Source: Candidatus Sulfotelmatobacter sp. (lineage in GTDB: Bacteria > Eisenbacteria > RBG-16-71-46). From it: a stretch of 32,963 nt of DNA. Position 1 is the stretch's first letter. Every line of letters begins with the position of its first letter. The notes below the pieces were generated by a model that saw only the letters and a list, made by a program, of their open reading frames with translations, was not told the DNA's origin and did no database searches. Location: the NCBI GenBank assembly GCA_035498555.1, contig DATKAB010000138.1, forward strand, positions 1 through 32,963, in the 5' to 3' direction. The position numbers were made by a program, and so were the translations under genes. Positions 23,621 through 31,731 of the stretch are shown here, piece after piece.

Positions 23621-24472
23621 TCACCAGTCGCGGCGGCGGAACCTCCACGCGCCGACGGCGAGTGGTGCGGCCAGCTCCGCGCCCAGCACGGCGACGCCGA
23701 GCGCGATTCCACCGGCGGTGCCGAACCACCGGACCAGCACCGCTGACGTCGGCCCGAACAGCGCGCCCGAGCCGGTCGCCAGCGTGGTGAGCACGCGCGC
23801 CAGGTCCACGGGATTGACGAGCAGCGCCGGAAACAGCATGGCCTGCAGCCGAACGCCGTTGAAGGTGGCCGTGGCGCCGAGCAGCACCAGATCGTAGGCC
23901 ACCACCGTCAGCAGCCACAGACCGATCGCCGCCGAGGTCGCGCGCAGGCGGTCCGGCCACAGCACCGCGAGCAGCATCGAGGCCGCCACCGAGATCGCGC
24001 CGAGCGCGAAGGCCACCGCCGTCAGCACCAGGAATCCGCGCAGCTGATCGGCGCCGGCTTCGATCGCGATCACCACGCCCCCGGCGCCGAAGCCGACCGC
24101 CAGAGCGACCGACAGCGCCGCGAGCAGCCCGAGGTACTTCCCGGCGTACACCTCGGTGCGCGCGACCGGCTGGGCGAGCAGCAGCGGCAGGGTGGCGCTC
24201 CCCGCGGTGAGACTGGCGACTCCGAGCAGAAGACCCATCAGCGGCACCACGAACAGGACCAGATTCATCAGGCTAAGAGTGACGCGAGCGAATCCCTGAA
24301 AGCCGAGCTCGCCGCTCTGCACCATGCCGAAGTAGGAAAGTCCGGCGATCAGTGTGGTGAGCAGCGCCGCGAAGCCGAACAGCCAGCGACTCTCGAGCGC
24401 GCCGCGATATTCCTCCTCGGCGACGACCCGCACCCGGCGCCAGCTCCCTGGAAACGCGCGGAGCCGGTTCAT
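23621..24472 (-). CDS. nosY: ABC transporter permease of the nos operon
   Basis: 283 aa with six hydrophobic segments. ABC2-type permease with the NosY features: the N-terminal EEEYRGALESRWLFGFAALLT and the middle TLPLLLAQPVARTEVYAGKYLG, where NosY typically has the LL..P..R....GK..G pattern. With NosF and NosD it forms a membrane complex needed for copper/sulfide assembly of the CuZ centre of nitrous oxide reductase. The start ATG overlaps the stop of the upstream small gene (ATGA). It is the last gene of the operon and ends two bases from the convergent phosphatase, with no terminator space. Confidence 0.88.
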   Translation of the reverse strand: MNRLRAFPGSWRRVRVVAEEEYRGALESRWLFGFAALLTTLIAGLSYFGMVQSGELGFQGFARVTLSLMNLVLFVVPLMGLLLGVASLTAGSATLPLLLAQPVARTEVYAGKYLGLLAALSVALAVGFGAGGVVIAIEAGADQLRGFLVLTAVAFALGAISVAASMLLAVLWPDRLRATSAAIGLWLLTVVAYDLVLLGATATFNGVRLQAMLFPALLVNPVDLARVLTTLATGSGALFGPTSAVLVRWFGTAGGIALGVAVLGAELAAPLAVGAWRFRRRDW

Positions 24473-24876
24473 TGGTGGCCCGCGACGAGATGCGACCCGG
24501 CGACATCGAATCGCCCGCGCGGCACGCCGTCCACCAGCCAGGCGAGCGGTACGCCGGGCCGATCGGCGACCAGGGAACCGCGCCAGGTGGAGTCGGGCGC
24601 CAGCGCGATCACGCTCAGGCGATCCTCGTAGCCCGACAGGCTGACGCGCGCCTGACGTCGGGTGCGATTGACGATCGCCAGCCGGAGGTCGTCGCCGACC
24701 GCGACCACCGCCGGGCGGCTGAAGACGCTGTCGTCGCGCAGCTCCACTTCCACCACGCGCGACTGCGCGGGCCGCGCCGGCTCGCTCATGGGAGGACGCT
24801 CGCCGCGGAACAGCACCTTCGCCAGCCCGAGCGCCAGCAGCGCGATCACGAACAGTACCAGGTAGCGGCGAATCAC
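24469..24876 (-). CDS. Small membrane-anchored cupredoxin-like protein without copper ligands
   Basis: 135 aa. The start is GTG 24876, with GGGAGGAA 6-7 nt upstream, overlapping the NosF stop (GTGA). One N-terminal membrane helix (RRYLVLFVIALLALGLAKVLF) is followed by a roughly 90-residue all-beta domain reading VEVELRDDSVFSRPAVVAVG...LRLAIVNRTRRQ...GRFDVAGSHL. This has the strand order of a cupredoxin, but the usual His/Cys/His/Met copper ligands are missing: the domain has no Cys and no Met, and only the C-terminal SHLVAGHQ offers histidines. It replaces nosL in the gene order. A scaffold role in CuZ assembly or in the NosFY complex is inferred only from position. Confidence 0.65.
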   Translation of the reverse strand: MIRRYLVLFVIALLALGLAKVLFRGERPPMSEPARPAQSRVVEVELRDDSVFSRPAVVAVGDDLRLAIVNRTRRQARVSLSGYEDRLSVIALAPDSTWRGSLVADRPGVPLAWLVDGVPRGRFDVAGSHLVAGHQ

Positions 24877-25814
24877 GGCGTTCCTCCCGGTGGGACCTCG
24901 CCGTGTCGCGGAGCGCCGCGCACCACGCCGAGGAAGATCTCTTCGAGTGTCGGCCGCTCCACCTCGAAGGAGCCGACGCGAACCCCGGATTCCCGCAGCG
25001 CCTCGAACACCCCCATCCCGCGGCCGTTCGCGGCTTCGAGAACCAGGCGCGTGTCGCCGCGGCAAACGATCGGGATCCCGGCGCCGCTCAGAACGCGGGT
25101 CGCCCGTTCGGTGGCCTCCGCCCCCGGCAGCTCGATCGCGAGCCGGGTGGCACTCGCCTGGCGCGCGCGCAGGGCGTCGAGCCGTTCGAGCGCGGCGCGG
25201 CGTCCGTCCACCAGTATCAGCACCCGGTCGGCCACGCGCTCGACCTCCGCCAGCAGGTGAGAACAGAGCAGAATCGTGATCCCCTGGCGGCGCAACTGCT
25301 CGACCAGGCTGCGGAATTCCCAGGTCGCTTCGGGATCGAGGCTGGCGGTCGGCTCGTCGAGCACCAGGATCGCGGGATCTCCGAGCAGCGCCTGGGCCAG
25401 CGACAGCCGCTGGGCGTAGCCGCCGGACAGGTCGCGCGCCCGGCGGTCGCCGAGCTCCGACATCCCGACTCGCGCGAGCGCCGCGCCGACCGCGGTGCGC
25501 GGCAGGCCGCGCAGATCCGAGAAGAAGCCGAGCACCTCTCGAACGGTGCGGCCGGCCGGGAACTCGACGCGTTGGGGCACGTAGCCGAGGTGCAGCCGCG
25601 CCCGCGCCACGCGCGGCTCCCACTGCTCGGGGCCCAGCAGGATGCGCCCGCGGTCCGGATGCACGAGCCCGAGCAGGAGTTTGAGAGTGGTGGTCTTGCC
25701 AGCGCCGTTGGGCCCGACGATCGCCAGCGTCTCTCCGGCAGCGACCTCGAACGACAGATCGTTCACGGCGGTGACGCAGCCGAATCGCTTGACGAGCCCC
25801 GCGGCTTCGATCAT
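24873..25814 (-). CDS. nosF: ABC transporter ATP-binding protein of the nos operon
   Basis: 313 aa. Walker A GPNGAGKTT near residue 36, signature LSGGYAQRLSLAQALLG near 138, Walker B ILVLDEPTASLD near 162, and switch His in LCSHLLAE. A C-terminal extension after about residue 215 is typical of NosF/CcmA-type ABC2 ATPases. It powers NosY (ABC2 permease) for CuZ maturation with NosD. The start ATG overlaps the NosD stop (ATGA), and the stop overlaps the GTG of the small downstream gene, so nosD, nosF and that gene are tightly coupled. Confidence 0.92.
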   Translation of the reverse strand: MIEAAGLVKRFGCVTAVNDLSFEVAAGETLAIVGPNGAGKTTTLKLLLGLVHPDRGRILLGPEQWEPRVARARLHLGYVPQRVEFPAGRTVREVLGFFSDLRGLPRTAVGAALARVGMSELGDRRARDLSGGYAQRLSLAQALLGDPAILVLDEPTASLDPEATWEFRSLVEQLRRQGITILLCSHLLAEVERVADRVLILVDGRRAALERLDALRARQASATRLAIELPGAEATERATRVLSGAGIPIVCRGDTRLVLEAANGRGMGVFEALRESGVRVGSFEVERPTLEEIFLGVVRGAPRHGEVPPGGTP

Positions 25815-27817
25815 GACGACTCCGATTCCCCGCTCCGGGATCGCGAGGGTCGGATCATGCCGGCCATTCCGCCGGCGCCGAGCAGCGCGAACGCGCCGGC
25901 CGCCCCCCACGCGGGTCGCGTGGCGCCGTGCCCTCTCCCGGCCCGCCGCGCGCCGGACGGGAGCCGCGCGCTCATCAGCGGGAACGAGTCCACCGCCTCG
26001 CTGGGCCGAAGCGCGGGCAGCACGCGCTCGGCGACGCCGAGCGCCGCCACCGCCGGACTCTCGGCCAGAATGGTGAGATCGGGATACTGCTTCGAGAGGA
26101 AGGCGAACGCCGTCACCGGCGAGTGCGGCACGTCGCTCACACCGTCGCCGTCGAGATCGAACGCCGGATTGTCGCTCCAGTAGTTGCCGAGCCGGCCTTC
26201 GTCGAACCGATTGCTGGTGCGCCGCATGTCGAGCGCCACCGGATAGTCGTTCTGAATGAACTGGTTTCCGGCGAAGACGTTGTCGGCGCACGAAGCGAAG
26301 ATCAGCAGACCCCATCCGTTGTTTTCGATCAGGTTGCCGCGAAATCGATTGCGATTGGAGCCATCCATGAACACGGCGATGGTGTTGGACCCGAGCCGAT
26401 TCTCGAGAAACGTGCCGTCCGAGCAATCACGCAGGAGCAACCCGTAAGTGCGCGGGCCGCGATTGAACACGAAATCGTTGTGCTCCACCTCGAGCTGATT
26501 CGAGAACATCAGCGCGCAGCCGGCGGCGTTCCGAGTGAAGAGATTCCCGCGCAGGTGTGAACGCTGGCTGTACATGCTGTGCAACCCGTAGCGCCCGTTC
26601 CGCTCGAGCTGGTTTTGGTCGACGTCGACCTGATTCGCGAACGACAGGTAGATCGCGTCGAGGAAGCGCTCGACATGGTTGCGGTGCAGCCATACGTCGC
26701 TCGAATACCAGAGGTGGATCCCGTTGCCGTTGCCGAGATCGTCGAGCGGGGCGACCCGTCCGGTGAAACGGCAATTGTCCACCGACAGGGCGGTCGAGCG
26801 TTCGCAGTTGAGCCCGTAGAGCACGTCACTCACCTCGAGATCGCGCAACACCGCGTGATCGGTGACCGCGACGTGGATGCCGGCGTCCACGTTCATGAGG
26901 TTGGAGCCGCTCCCCCTCACCGCGAAGTGTTCGAGATGGACGCCGGGCGCGGCAACGGTGATCACCGTGCCCAGGCCGCCGCCATCCACGACCGCGCCGG
27001 GCTGCGCCAGGACCGTCACCGAGCGCCGGATGACGAGCGGCCCGCGATGCACCCCGGCCGCGAGCCACAGCGTGTCACCGTCGTGCGCCGCCTGGAGCGC
27101 GGCGGCTGCGGCGCCGGGGGTCGCCGGCACGACGAACCCGGCTTCGGCCCGCCCGGCGCCGATGCCGAGAGCGGCGATCCCGACCAGCGCGGTGACCGCG
27201 GCGGCTCGCGCGGCGGGAGCGGCGTGCCGCTTCGAGACGCGCCAGTCCCACCAGACCACCAGCGGCCCGATCACCCAGGCGAGGCCCAGCAGCCAGGTGC
27301 CGATCGCGGGCAGGCTGAGCACCCGGAAGTTCGCCATGCGCGCGTAGCCGATCAGCGGCGGCGTGAACGAGGGCATCTTGAGCGCGGCGCGCGGGTCGAG
27401 GTCGTGGCCGTAGTGCCACAACCACTGGGCGTAATCGCGAAACATGTAGCCCGCGAACCCGGTGAACAACAGCCAGCCGAGCAGCGCCACCCAGCGCCGG
27501 TTGACCAGCGCGGCCAGCAGCGCGAGCAGCCCGAACAGCGTCAGCGCCAGCGGCATGTAACCGAACTCGCGGAAGTCGTGCGGGGTGATCGCCTTCATGC
27601 CGACGTAGTGATTCAAGGCGTTGATCTTCCCCAGGTCGCCACGAATGGTGTTGGTATAAATCGTGAGCTGGAGCCCCTCCGGGTACTGCGGCGCGTGCAG
27701 TCTCATCATCCAGATCGGCAGCACCGGCAGGAAGAACACCGGAAGCAGAAGCACCGCCGCCAGCGCGATCAATCGGCGTTGGCTCGGACCAAAGCGCCCC
27801 GTCAGCCAGCTCGTCAT
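25811..27817 (-). CDS. nosD: NosD copper-site maturation protein fused to an N-terminal membrane module
   Basis: 668 aa; NosD proteins are normally about 400-450. Residues about 1-193 are an extra membrane domain with four helices (16-38, 88-105, 108-126, 171-190), a LHAPQYPEGLQL loop and NALNHYVGMKAITPH. These motifs I associate with a separate membrane protein next to nos genes in clade II organisms. Residues about 205-226 then form a hydrophobic stretch ending GRAEA|GF, which looks like a former NosD signal peptide. The right-handed beta-helix (CASH/NosD repeats, about 230-610) follows, with GNGIHLWYSSDVWLHRN and NYWSDNPAFDLDGDGVSDVPH near its end, then a final helix (about 635-653). AGGAG lies 8 nt before the ATG. 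It should act at the periplasmic face in CuZ assembly with NosFY. Confidence 0.9.
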   Translation of the reverse strand: MTSWLTGRFGPSQRRLIALAAVLLLPVFFLPVLPIWMMRLHAPQYPEGLQLTIYTNTIRGDLGKINALNHYVGMKAITPHDFREFGYMPLALTLFGLLALLAALVNRRWVALLGWLLFTGFAGYMFRDYAQWLWHYGHDLDPRAALKMPSFTPPLIGYARMANFRVLSLPAIGTWLLGLAWVIGPLVVWWDWRVSKRHAAPAARAAAVTALVGIAALGIGAGRAEAGFVVPATPGAAAAALQAAHDGDTLWLAAGVHRGPLVIRRSVTVLAQPGAVVDGGGLGTVITVAAPGVHLEHFAVRGSGSNLMNVDAGIHVAVTDHAVLRDLEVSDVLYGLNCERSTALSVDNCRFTGRVAPLDDLGNGNGIHLWYSSDVWLHRNHVERFLDAIYLSFANQVDVDQNQLERNGRYGLHSMYSQRSHLRGNLFTRNAAGCALMFSNQLEVEHNDFVFNRGPRTYGLLLRDCSDGTFLENRLGSNTIAVFMDGSNRNRFRGNLIENNGWGLLIFASCADNVFAGNQFIQNDYPVALDMRRTSNRFDEGRLGNYWSDNPAFDLDGDGVSDVPHSPVTAFAFLSKQYPDLTILAESPAVAALGVAERVLPALRPSEAVDSFPLMSARLPSGARRAGRGHGATRPAWGAAGAFALLGAGGMAGMIRPSRSRSGESESS

Positions 27818-27832
27818 GGAAGACTCTCCTGG

Positions 27833-27865
27833 CCGGGCGCGAGCCGGTGGCTGGCTCGCGCCCGG
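27833..27865 (-). repeat. 13-bp perfect hairpin between nosZ and nosD
   Basis: CCGGGCGCGAGCC (27833-27845), a seven-base loop, and its exact complement (27853-27865). It occupies much of the 85-bp gap between the nosZ stop and the nosD start and ends about 15 bp before the nosD ATG, leaving the AGGAG site just outside the stem. There is no T-tract on either side, so it is not a classical intrinsic terminator. A role in stabilising the nosZ 3' end or in lowering nosD expression is plausible. Confidence 0.7.
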
Positions 27866-27902
27866 ATCGTTTCCGGCGCCCTCCCCCCGGGCACCGGCGA
27901 GT

Positions 27903-29813
27903 TCAATTGCGCGTCATCTCGGCCAGCGCGGCGGCCACGTTCCGAGGATCGGCACGCTGCGTCTGGGCGACCGGGGTACCCTTCGGCCGCACCTCGATGT
28001 AGCCCTGCATCTCCTGGTGCAGCGCGCTGCAGAAGTTCGAGCAGTAGAAGGGATTGATCCCCTCGTGCTCCGCGGTCCATCGCATGGTCTTGGTCTCACC
28101 CGGTTCGATCTGCATGTTCTTGCTCGACCACAGGATGCCGAAGCCATGCGCGATGTCGTCGTCCTGCTCGAGATTGGTCCAGTGGAAGTAGACGTCGTCG
28201 CCCTGATTCACGCGCACGATGTCGGGCACGAAGTGCGAGCGCACCACGATGCCGTACACGTCCACGCGATTGCCGTGGCGCTCGATACGCGCGTCCTCGG
28301 GTTTGAGGACCGCACCCGGTTTGTGGTTCTCGGCCAGCGGATAGACCGTGAACGGCTTGAGCTTTTCGGCGCGGATCATCTGCGCGTAATGAGGCTCGAG
28401 GTAGGTCGGGAAATCGTAGAGCAGCTGCATCTTCGGCCCGCGCAGATCGATCAGTTGGGCGGCCTCGGGATGCGTGGGGCCCACACTGAGATAGCGATCC
28501 TTCGACAGCTTGTCGAGCGCCACGACGTACTCACCGGTGGGGTGGCGCGTGTCGCCTCCCGACGCCATGAGATGGCCGATCGAGTAGTACACGTCGATCT
28601 TGTCCACCACGTTCCACGGCGGCCCGACCTTCCACTTCGCGATCTGGGAGTCGAGGAACAACGAGGTGTAGGCGTAGCCCTTGTCGTCGAACTGCGTATG
28701 GAGCGGACCCAGACCGACCGGCACCCTGGCTTCCATCACGTCCTCGAACTTGAGCACCGGGATGCCGAACTTCTCGCCGTCGAACTTGCCTGCATCCACC
28801 GACGCTTTGAACTTGGCGTAGCTGAAGACCGTCACTTCGGCCTGCAGCTTGCCGGAGGCGCAGATGTACTCGCCGGTCGGATTCACGTCGATGCCGTGCG
28901 GACTCTTCGGAACCGGCACCAGGTACACCATGCCCTTGACCTCGGCGGGATCCACGACCGGTGCGCCGCCGATCATGCGTGCCTTGCCGCTGTCGACGGC
29001 CTTCTGCGCCGCTCGCCAGTCCACGGCGGCGAAGTAGTCCATCTCGTTCTGCGACGCGTTGATCTCGAGCGTGTCGTAGGCCATCTCGCTGTTGTAGCAG
29101 GTGAAGAACTCCCAGCCGTTGCTCGGGCCCTTGCCGGCGTCGGCGAGATCCCAGTCGAACGGTGGCATCAGGATCTCGAAGCCCATGGACATGTTTCCGT
29201 CTTTCGGATCCACCTTGATGCCGGCGACGATGCCGCGGAACTCCCGGGCGTAGTCCTCGACGTGCACGAACCGATTGGGCACGGGGACCGAGAACCGCGA
29301 GGCGGCAAACACGTACTCGGTGTTCGGCGTCGGGAAGGGACAGGCGTGCGCGGCGGAAAGGTTGGGAATCGGCCCGAAGATCTGGCGGGTCTTGAACTCC
29401 TTCAGGTCGATGCGCGCGATTCGCGCATTGGGCATGTCGTTGATGAACAGCCAGCGCCCGTCGTAGTCGCCGTCAGTCTCGGACAGGCCGGGGTGATGGG
29501 CGTCGCCCCACGTGAAGCCGCCGAGCATGGCTTTGGTCTCTTCGTCATAGCCATATCCGACGGCCGGCTCGGGGGTGAATACCGGGATGGTGGTGATGTG
29601 GCGGCACGATGGGATCCCATAGACGTAAACGTTTCCGTGGTGCCCGCCGGACAGGAACGCGTAGTACGCGTCGTGCTCACCGGGCTTCACGTACACCTTT
29701 TCCGCGGCGTTGCTGGCGGACGAGCCGCCGCGACCCGCGGCACAACCCAGGATCTGCGCCGCGCCGATTCCCAGCGTAAGCGCGCCCGCAGCGACCAGCC
29801 ACCAGCGCTTCAT
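27903..29813 (-). CDS. nosZ: Nitrous oxide reductase, clade II, lipoprotein type
   Basis: 636 aa. It reduces N2O to N2 in the periplasm. A lipoprotein signal peptide (lipobox ILGC, Cys24) replaces the Tat signal of clade I enzymes. The seven CuZ histidines can be picked out: H58 and H59 (GGHHG), H106 or H107 (DAHHPG), H306 (KSPHG), H372 (PLHTQFD), H414 (SIGHLMA) and H475 (LEPHYAQ). The C-terminal cupredoxin domain holds CuA: H556, then C591, C595, H599 and M602 in CSNFCSALHQEM. I chose ATG 29813 because AGGGAG lies 7 nt upstream; ATG 29819, overlapping the cytochrome stop, is the alternative. It is the third gene of the operon. Substitution of Asn-Phe for the Trp-Phe usual in clade I is typical of clade II. 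Confidence 0.97.
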   Translation of the reverse strand: MKRWWLVAAGALTLGIGAAQILGCAAGRGGSSASNAAEKVYVKPGEHDAYYAFLSGGHHGNVYVYGIPSCRHITTIPVFTPEPAVGYGYDEETKAMLGGFTWGDAHHPGLSETDGDYDGRWLFINDMPNARIARIDLKEFKTRQIFGPIPNLSAAHACPFPTPNTEYVFAASRFSVPVPNRFVHVEDYAREFRGIVAGIKVDPKDGNMSMGFEILMPPFDWDLADAGKGPSNGWEFFTCYNSEMAYDTLEINASQNEMDYFAAVDWRAAQKAVDSGKARMIGGAPVVDPAEVKGMVYLVPVPKSPHGIDVNPTGEYICASGKLQAEVTVFSYAKFKASVDAGKFDGEKFGIPVLKFEDVMEARVPVGLGPLHTQFDDKGYAYTSLFLDSQIAKWKVGPPWNVVDKIDVYYSIGHLMASGGDTRHPTGEYVVALDKLSKDRYLSVGPTHPEAAQLIDLRGPKMQLLYDFPTYLEPHYAQMIRAEKLKPFTVYPLAENHKPGAVLKPEDARIERHGNRVDVYGIVVRSHFVPDIVRVNQGDDVYFHWTNLEQDDDIAHGFGILWSSKNMQIEPGETKTMRWTAEHEGINPFYCSNFCSALHQEMQGYIEVRPKGTPVAQTQRADPRNVAAALAEMTRN

Positions 29814-29815
29814 GT

Positions 29816-30298
29816 TCATTCTCCCTTCCCGGCTTCCTGCGCCTGGTGATTCTTGTGCTTCAGGAACTCGATCACCGATCGGGCCTCGTCGGGAGTGAGT
29901 CCCTGATTGGGCATCTGCAGCGAGTACTGTCCGAACAGCTGATGAGAGATCGGGTCCTGTTTCACCATGACGTCGGGGTGCAGAATCTGGTTCTCCATCC
30001 ACTGCGCGGTGCGCCGCATGGTTACGCCGTTGAGATCAGGGCACTGGAGCCGCTTCCCGAAGGCGTGGCAGGCGGAGCAACCCTTGTTCGTGAACAGCTT
30101 CTCTCCGGCCGTGACCCGCGATTCGTCGATCGGCTGCTCGCCGGCCCGCGGCCCCGAGTCGTATTGCGAGACCGCCGCGACGACCGTGCCGCTGGAGGCG
30201 GAAGGAGCGGATGCGGTGGATCCCGATCCACTCTTCGAGCCGCAACCGGCCAGCGCCATCGCGACCACGAGCAAGCCCACTTGAGTCCTGCTATTCAT
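29816..30298 (-). CDS. Lipoprotein mono-haem cytochrome c
   Basis: 160 aa. The signal peptide has lipobox LAGC (Cys about residue 19), then a Ser/Gly-rich linker. A class I cytochrome c domain begins near residue 60 with AGEKLFTNKGCSACHAFGKR, containing the CxxCH haem site; the distal ligand is probably Met in SLQMPNQGLTPDEA near residue 130. The closing RSVIEFLKHKN helix is usual for the fold. It lies directly upstream of nosZ (2 bp, or 4-bp overlap), and clade II nos clusters often contain such cytochromes, so it is the obvious electron donor to CuA of NosZ. Its start overlaps the hemerythrin stop (ATGA). Confidence 0.92.
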   Translation of the reverse strand: MNSRTQVGLLVVAMALAGCGSKSGSGSTASAPSASSGTVVAAVSQYDSGPRAGEQPIDESRVTAGEKLFTNKGCSACHAFGKRLQCPDLNGVTMRRTAQWMENQILHPDVMVKQDPISHQLFGQYSLQMPNQGLTPDEARSVIEFLKHKNHQAQEAGKGE

Positions 30299-30801
30299 GC
30301 GGATGTCCTCCGAAAGGAGTCTCGAGAATCGTTCGGGGGCACGCCGAGCCGAGCCGCGAGAGTTTCGAGCTCGGCGGTGGCGAGCACACGGGAAGCCACC
30401 GCGAACACGGTGGCTTCCTCCTTCTGAATGTGCAGTCGGAGCAGGTCCACGAAGTCGCGCAGCTCCACTCGCACCCGACCATCGCGCACCATTCCGGCCG
30501 GCGAGTCGAGCAGCGCGCTCAAGTCCCCCAGCATCTGGCGCAGCTCCGCGTGCTCCGCCTCTAGCGGACCAAGCGTCACGCTCGCCATTGGCAGCGTTCG
30601 AGCCAGCACGGGGAACAACACGTCCTCCTCGGACCGCATGTGGGTCGCGAACTGGCGCTCGAGGTGCTCGATCAGTTCGCGCACCGCCGGCTCCCGAATC
30701 GAACCCGCCGGCCCCATGCCGGTGTTCGACGCGCGCTCGAGATCCTCGAGCCGCTCGAGGACGCCAGCGTGGTCCTCGCGAAGCCTCTGAAACGCATCCA
30801 C
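30295..30801 (-). CDS. Hemerythrin-like (HHE cation-binding) protein
   Basis: 168 aa four-helix bundle with di-iron ligands in the right places: His10 (REDHAGVL), His54 and Glu58 (FATHMRSEEDVLF), His82 (EAEHAELR), and His122 with Glu126 (LRLHIQKEEATVF). The start is GTG 30801, with GGGGGGAGGG about 10 nt upstream; there is no ATG nearby. No signal peptide, so cytoplasmic. Proteins of this kind bind O2 or NO or take part in repair of damaged iron-sulfur clusters. As the first gene of the nos operon it may protect or report on NO or O2 during denitrification. That role is inferred from position. Confidence 0.9.
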   Translation of the reverse strand: MDAFQRLREDHAGVLERLEDLERASNTGMGPAGSIREPAVRELIEHLERQFATHMRSEEDVLFPVLARTLPMASVTLGPLEAEHAELRQMLGDLSALLDSPAGMVRDGRVRVELRDFVDLLRLHIQKEEATVFAVASRVLATAELETLAARLGVPPNDSRDSFRRTSA

Positions 30802-30878: not shown

Positions 30879-30894
30879 TATGACGCGGGTCATA
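30879..30894. promoter_or_regulatory. Crp/Fnr-type palindrome between the nos operon and its regulator
   Basis: TATGAC (30879-30884), GCGG, GTCATA (30889-30894): two perfect 6-bp arms with a 4-bp centre, the spacing of Fnr/Dnr/FixK sites (TTGAT-N4-ATCAA). The arms share TnTGAC-like bases with the family, not the exact Fnr sequence. Counting 41.5 bp from its centre toward the nos operon puts the start near 30845. A GATCCT at 30857-30852 would serve as a weak -10, which fits a class II activator site. Confidence 0.55.
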
Positions 30895-30981
30895 TCCGGA
30901 GCCGATTTCCTGCCCGGCCCCCGGTGGGGGAAAATGCTCACGATGCAGGTTGGTACCCGGTTTCACCGTCAGGAGATACCC

Positions 30982-31731
30982 GTGTCCCAGCGAACTCCCG
31001 GGCCGGCCGAAGGCTCGCGTAACGCGCTGATGAAGGAGCGTGTCGAGGCGGCGGTGCACTCACTGCCGGTGCTCCAGGGCCTCGCGCGCGAGGATCAGTC
31101 GCGCATCGCGCGGCTCGCGACGCTGCGCGACTTCGAGCGCGGGGAATGGATCTGGCGGGCCGGCGATGCGTCGGAGCAGCTGACCCTGATCGTCCACGGG
31201 CGGGTCAAGATCGTCCGCCACGCCGAGCAGGACGACGTGATCCTCGAGATCTTCGGCGAAGGCGAGCCGGTCGGCGCGATTGCGGTGTACAACGGCTTCC
31301 CCTATCCGGCGAGCGCAGCGGCGCTCGAACCCACCACCCTGCTCTGCATTCCTCGGCGTGAATACTTCGAATTGCTCGATCGCCATCCCGAGGTCGCCCG
31401 CGCCGTGATCCGTGAGCTGACGCGCCTGAACCTGTCGCTGACGCGCAAGCTCGAGGAATCGAGGAGCCAGCGCGTCGATGTTCGCATCGCGCAGCTGTTC
31501 CTGACGCTGGCCGAGCGGATGGGTCGCGAGAGCGCCGACGGTGTCGAGGTTCCGCTCGAGCTCACCCGCCACGAGATCGCGCAGCTGGTGGGCACCACGG
31601 TCGAGACCGCGATCCGGGTGATGTCGCGTTGGGGTCGCGAGGGGTTGCTGCTCACCGGCGAGGGCCGCTTCGTGATTCCCTCGCTCGAACGCCTCGAGGA
31701 GGCGGCGCGAGGCTCCGCCGACGCTACCTGA
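30982..31731 (+). CDS. Crp/Fnr-family transcriptional regulator (Dnr-like)
   Basis: 249 aa from GTG 30982, which has AGGAG 6-7 nt upstream; ATGs at 30934 and 30943 would extend it. The cyclic-nucleotide-binding-fold sensor spans about residues 25-145 (WIWRAGDASEQLTLIVHGRVKIV, EIFGEGEPVGAIAVYNGFPYPASA). A dimerisation helix follows, then a winged helix with LTRHEIAQLVGTTVETAIRVMSRWGREGLL, whose E-T-A-I-R is the DNA-recognition segment. No N-terminal cysteine cluster of Fnr is present, so it is not a [4Fe-4S] O2 sensor; Dnr/NnrR-type haem NO sensing is a possibility. It is divergent from the nos operon with a palindrome in between, so nos activation is the likely job. It overlaps the convergent protease gene by 8 bp. 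Confidence 0.9.
   Translation: MSQRTPGPAEGSRNALMKERVEAAVHSLPVLQGLAREDQSRIARLATLRDFERGEWIWRAGDASEQLTLIVHGRVKIVRHAEQDDVILEIFGEGEPVGAIAVYNGFPYPASAAALEPTTLLCIPRREYFELLDRHPEVARAVIRELTRLNLSLTRKLEESRSQRVDVRIAQLFLTLAERMGRESADGVEVPLELTRHEIAQLVGTTVETAIRVMSRWGREGLLLTGEGRFVIPSLERLEEAARGSADAT

Follow-up and report, generated by a model that had tools for sequence, protein, structure and literature searches.

A clade II nitrous oxide reductase operon without nosL in Candidatus Eisenbacteria, with a CuA-like companion gene and a hemerythrin as first gene

How can a bacterium assemble and supply a nitrous oxide (N2O) reductase when the copper chaperone NosL and the electron donors NosR and NosX are all missing from its nos operon? 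N2O is a greenhouse gas, N2O reductase is its main biological sink, and copper loading is the weak step of this enzyme. The question is raised by an operon of seven genes (positions 23,621 to 30,801) in a stretch of 32,963 nucleotides, here called the window, from contig DATKAB010000138.1 of Candidatus Sulfotelmatobacter sp., a member of the phylum Candidatus Eisenbacteria (assembly GCA_035498555.1). The system is of a known kind, and three of its features are unusual: an apparently recurrent loss of NosL, a CuA-like protein that probably accompanies NosL, and a regulator-hemerythrin cassette that is shared with other operons. None of the three was reported in the open-licence papers that a literature search covered. 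The key point is that relatives carry nosL at precisely this position, that by the best tree it has been lost repeatedly, and that its neighbour, a gene here called cup, is always kept.

At the level of sequence the operon is confirmed, and its genes make up a complete set for N2O respiration. Gene families were assigned with Pfam and NCBIfam. On re-checking, the reading frames and coordinates hold, and the gene order (hemerythrin, cytochrome c, nosZ, nosBD, nosF, cup, nosY, all on the minus strand) is the one that an earlier note on this DNA had given. That note had described the genes as overlapping or nearly so; five junctions are indeed 4-bp overlaps (ATGA or GTGA), and the sole gap, of 85 bp, separates nosZ from nosBD. 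NosZ scores well above the cut-off of its clade II family (Table 1). In an alignment with solved N2O reductases it keeps all seven CuZ histidines (108, 109, 158, 308, 374, 416 and 477) and all CuA ligands (His558, Cys593, Cys597, His601 and Met604), the identities of which we take from what is established for the Pseudomonas stutzeri enzyme. A Sec-type NosZ together with NosB, NosD, NosF and NosY places the operon in clade II, as the earlier note had claimed; NosL, usual but not universal in this clade, is absent. The comparison with clade II, based on PMC9697520 and 80 nos loci, points the same way: clusters of Bacteroidota, Wolinella and Gemmatimonas have the same Sec-type NosZ (often lipoprotein-like), NosB and NosDFY, commonly an upstream cytochrome c, and neither NosR nor NosX. 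Unlike the clade II norm, the operon studied here has lost nosL, has NosB fused to NosD, holds a CuA-like cup between nosF and nosY, and starts with a hemerythrin. A lipoprotein NosZ was also considered as an unusual trait and was rejected, since many clade II enzymes have a lipobox-like N-terminus.

NosL is missing not only from the locus but, as far as two kinds of profile can tell, from the genome. A genome-wide search with PF05573 gave no match. This family misses the true NosL of two relatives, in L016 and L102 (we denote genomes by G, of which 59 were searched, the host being G000, and loci by L; L016 belongs to G002 and L015 to G006, two genomes of the host's own family), so that absence calls from PF05573 alone are unsafe and this test was rejected as sufficient. 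A more sensitive profile was built from the Eisenbacteria copies of G002, G004, G006, G043 and G025. It finds these five source copies, all separate genes, at E < 1e-50 and the distant fusion protein of G052 at 7e-13, and it finds nothing in G000, G001, G033 and G035, which are 94-100% complete. In G002, G004, G006 and G043, nosL, with its CxxCGM motif, sits exactly between nosF and cup; in the four NosL-free loci nosF abuts cup, and the deletions are clean. Nor is cup itself a NosL, as it has a cupredoxin fold and no Cys/Met site. It could be imagined that NosL is encoded elsewhere and was missed, or that a periplasmic copper chaperone, for example of the SCO1 type, replaces it. SCO1 genes do occur in hemerythrin-nirK operons of relatives, the host assembly (3.8 Mb, completeness 100%) is divided over 219 contigs, and PF05573 is blind to some real copies; the lineage profile is nevertheless negative in all four genomes, and we regard this explanation as rather improbable.

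The NosL-free genomes span two families, each of which also has NosL-containing members with the gene in the same position. In trees of NosZ, NosB, NosD, NosF and NosY, the best topologies need three changes in NosL state, which favours repeated loss, in about three events. A single ancestral loss followed by horizontal spread of the NosL-free operon would require the four loci to form one clade; this arrangement costs 30 log units and is not rejected at the 5% level (p-AU 0.056), so that repeated loss is favoured, not proved. Given the best trees and the distribution over two families, we consider a single loss unlikely. NosL-free clade II clusters do not seem to be confined to this phylum: Pfam finds no NosL in the genomes of L030, L033, L057 and L075 either, although Pfam can miss divergent copies.

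The structure model of cup (pLDDT 86) has one N-terminal transmembrane helix and a beta-sandwich of the cupredoxin type. Foldseek matches it to many cupredoxins; the CuA domain of N2O reductase is among the best and gives the closest superposition of those listed (rmsd 2.2 Å for 1fwx, and 2.2-2.6 Å over 1fwx and 5i5i). The profile of cup also weakly matches the C-termini of NosZ; iterated matches inside NosZ were rejected as additional cup genes, being the CuA domain. Unlike that domain, cup has a shortened ligand loop without Cys, His or Met ligands, an N-terminal membrane anchor and a tail with two histidines. The earlier description as a ligandless cupredoxin is thus correct for type-1 and CuA ligands, no Cys or Met being conserved, but it overlooks the C-terminal GSHLxxGH, which is conserved in Eisenbacteria and contains the only two conserved histidines.

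Ten of the 59 genomes encode cup, all of them with nosZ and none without, and among Eisenbacteria nos loci it is found in all whose contig extends that far. In two other phyla it forms the C-terminal part of a fusion with NosL (L031, 8778-9623; L100, 7059-7826). Gene order, fusion and co-occurrence together point to cup as a partner of NosL in copper-centre assembly, and its survival after the loss of NosL suggests a function of its own. More tentatively, cup may be an undescribed maturation factor of N2O reductase that binds NosDFY or apo-NosZ, as a rule alongside NosL, and that enabled CuZ assembly after the repeated loss of NosL in Eisenbacteria.

What a lack of NosL entails has been studied in Paracoccus denitrificans, where the enzyme made without it is CuZ-deficient, and partly active when copper is sufficient (PMC6530538). 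This result, and the repeated loss of NosL on the best tree, would also be compatible with a decaying cluster, whose host makes little use of N2O reduction and whose enzyme is short of copper or inactive. Decay seems decidedly unlikely to us: none of the seven reading frames is broken, NosZ has all its copper ligands, the translational overlaps persist, the other three NosL-free relatives have complete clusters and the operator in place, and the deletions that join nosF to cup are clean.

The operon opens with a hemerythrin, as had been claimed, and a Crp/Fnr gene diverges directly upstream of it. Residues His11, His54-x3-Glu58, His84 and His124-x3-Glu128 are invariant in eight orthologues. 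The window's protein has five histidines and two bridging carboxylates; since His46 occurs only there, four histidines and the carboxylates are the conserved set. An orthologue accompanies each of the eight Eisenbacteria nosZ clusters for which a long contig includes the upstream side. The short nos contig of G025 shows the cytochrome c gene, and no hemerythrin match was found in that genome. The co-occurrence is not exclusive, as orthologues are also found in G003, G016 and G018, which lack nosZ. In G003 and G018 the same cassette of Crp/Fnr gene, operator and hemerythrin stands at the head of a nirK operon that also includes porin and SCO1 genes and, in G003, nnrS; in G016 no N-oxide gene lies beside the hemerythrin before the contig ends. 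The hemerythrin would therefore belong to N-oxide handling in general, and the specific tie to N2O respiration that the earlier note had proposed is not borne out. Hemerythrin-nirK operons of nosZ-less Eisenbacteria are located at 1425-8115 of L212 (SCO1 and NnrS) and at 5998-11452 of L210 (SCO1).

The nearest solved structures are those of the YtfE hemerythrin domain, YtfE being a di-iron protein of nitrosative stress. In denitrifiers and related bacteria, NorA, DnrN and YtfE are di-iron nitric oxide (NO) proteins (PMC9045102, PMC1274295), and the present protein shares with them the domain, the His/Glu ligands and the linkage to nir, nos and nnrS. Unlike these RIC proteins it has no ScdA_N domain in Pfam, reaches 17-27 bits where the cut-offs lie above 200 (TIGR03652: 27 against 204.7) and stands first in nos and nirK operons. 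By this analogy NO binding is the most likely role and the one we prefer. A second possibility is that the protein senses or scavenges O2, guarding the maturation of NosZ or reporting O2. Hemerythrin domains often bind O2, all five histidines and both bridging carboxylates are intact in the window's protein, and the host genome encodes aa3 and cbb3 oxidases, from which a life at changing O2 can be deduced. An O2 role fits less well with a cassette that also stands before nirK operons, which produce NO and in one case include NnrS, and with structural neighbours from nitrosative stress; it is the less likely of the two readings.

The regulator and its site form the other part of the cassette. 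The dyad ATGACGCGGGTCAT is the only ATGAC-N4-GTCAT in the 3.8-Mb genome, and the same dyad or a one-step variant lies upstream of the hemerythrin gene in 10 of 11 relatives; 16 sites are seen, the window's included, where 0.03 are expected from shuffles. Only the strict form in promoter regions counts, as a relaxed pattern matched all 59 genomes and was discarded as uninformative. The exception is L015, where no Crp/Fnr gene was found: its nos operon has kept the hemerythrin and lacks both the divergent gene and the operator. In some relatives (L097 and L213) the intergenic region holds two operator copies, each close to one of the divergent genes, against a single copy in the window. In relatives, too, the regulator gene is divergent, and its recognition helix, TxE(S/T)AIR, keeps the Glu and Arg that read the TGA core in FNR and CRP. 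The protein has the Crp/Fnr domains and, in place of four cluster-binding cysteines, a single Cys, so that an FNR-type iron-sulphur cluster is not expected. With the DNR, NnrR and FNR regulons and their TTGAT-N4-ATCAA box (PMC1274295) it shares a Crp/Fnr gene beside nos or nir, a 5-N4-5 dyad and the TGA core; unlike them it has a different dyad and one Cys, and it belongs to an unnamed subgroup.

The absence of NosR, also noticed earlier, extends to the whole genome, in which no FMN_bind domain was found. NosX (ApbE) is absent from the operon, and no genome-wide search for it was made, so that the claim of its absence stands for the operon. Clade II clusters in general lack both proteins (PMC9697520); as this is the rule in the clade, their absence does not force a new electron route, contrary to what had been argued. 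The cytochrome c proposed as donor remains plausible, and transfer from it to CuA of NosZ is the likely route. It is 38% identical to the C-terminal cytochrome c domain of a NirK-like copper protein of the same genome, and shows no clear resemblance to the cytochrome c domain of the G003 and G018 NirKs. This NirK-like protein (L140, 466-2748; G000:C178) scores 183 bits against a cut-off of 296; no NO reductase of the COX1 family (NorB type) was found in the host genome. The nos cytochrome c gene has a second copy beside the cluster in L095 (14424-14978) and L097 (5874-6614).

The membrane part of the NosD fusion had been named as another possible electron route, and here the earlier claim is only half right. 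The fusion exists, but its membrane part is identified by motifs and alignment as NosB: the N-terminal 205 residues carry LNHYVGM and YGHD and can be aligned with the NosB proteins of Bacillus and Bacteroidota. The marker motifs of NosB, a known clade II Nos protein, are LNHYIGM and YGHN, and the fusions known so far join it to NosL (PMC9697520). In most relatives NosB and NosD have a gene each; they are fused only here and in L102, with two changes on the tree. A sequencing artefact is unlikely, because L102 has the fusion too.

These elements combine into what we consider, with somewhat more confidence than doubt, a single, locally regulated operon for clade II N2O respiration. The divergent Crp/Fnr protein would act at ATGAC-N4-GTCAT and control all seven genes as a unit, as the conserved site and the gene overlaps suggest. 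The cytoplasmic di-iron hemerythrin would bind NO, possibly O2, and thereby shield the cell or tune the regulator, while the lipoprotein cytochrome c would hand electrons to CuA of NosZ. NosB, though fused to NosD, would do what it does elsewhere in clade II. NosDFY would build CuZ; in relatives NosL would bring Cu(I) with cup assisting at the membrane, and here NosDFY and cup would work with copper from another source, probably needing more of it. This reading is based on the intact NosZ ligands, the complete nosBDFY set, the overlaps, the unique and conserved operator, the cassette before nirK in G003 and G018, the likeness to YtfE, the cytochrome family shared with the NirK-like protein, the pattern of NosL presence and absence, the distribution of cup and its NosL fusions, and the P. 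denitrificans nosL result (PMC6530538). Several points weigh against it. The link between cup and NosL is drawn from gene order and fusion, and a cup without copper ligands leaves the delivery of Cu(I) unexplained. NO binding is assigned by family analogy to a protein without ScdA_N and far below the RIC/YtfE/DnrN cut-offs. Finally, a divergent or unrelated NosL substitute could lie beyond the profile, or a NosL in a gap of the 219-contig assembly.

Naturally NosL-free clusters can readily be compared with their NosL-containing sisters to learn where NosL is required; the always-kept cup is a specific, testable candidate for its partner. The cassette of regulator, operator and hemerythrin provides a handle on N-oxide regulation in the Eisenbacteria, a phylum of which we know no cultured member.

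Table 1. Features of the nos operon and its upstream region, in coordinates of the window
Feature	Position	Strand	Basis
Hemerythrin (HHE di-iron), first gene, 168 aa, no evident signal peptide	30295..30801	-	PF01814 1.2e-21
Lipoprotein mono-haem cytochrome c, LAGC lipobox, CSACH, conserved Met129	29816..30298	-	PF00034 1.5e-10; orthologues in the same place in relatives
nosZ, Sec-type clade II, possible lipobox ILGC	27903..29819	-	TIGR04246 869 bits, cut-off 625; ligands
nosBD, NosB-NosD fusion	25811..27817	-	TIGR04247 378 bits over residues 239-615; NosB motifs
NosB membrane part of the fusion	~27203-27817	-	
NosD beta-helix of the fusion	~25973-27103	-	
nosF, ABC ATPase	24873..25814	-	PF00005 2.8e-32; same place in related clusters
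cup, one-TM (transmembrane helix) cupredoxin-like protein, 135 aa	24469..24876	-	No Pfam/NCBIfam family; structure model and Foldseek
nosY, ABC-2 permease, last gene	23621..24472	-	PF12679 1.2e-23
Operator-like dyad ATGACGCGGGTCAT (ATGAC-N4-GTCAT), between the hemerythrin and Crp/Fnr genes	30880..30893	.	Unique in genome, conserved in relatives
Crp/Fnr-family regulator, divergent, start uncertain (30934-31030), one Cys	30934..31731	+	PF00027, PF13545

A scan of the window with Rfam gave no matches, and scans for sigma-70 promoters and terminators gave no informative signal. Among the clade II loci compared are some of Pontibacter (L052, L053, L058, L067, L068 and L076), whose genomes hold two clade II nos clusters in tandem.

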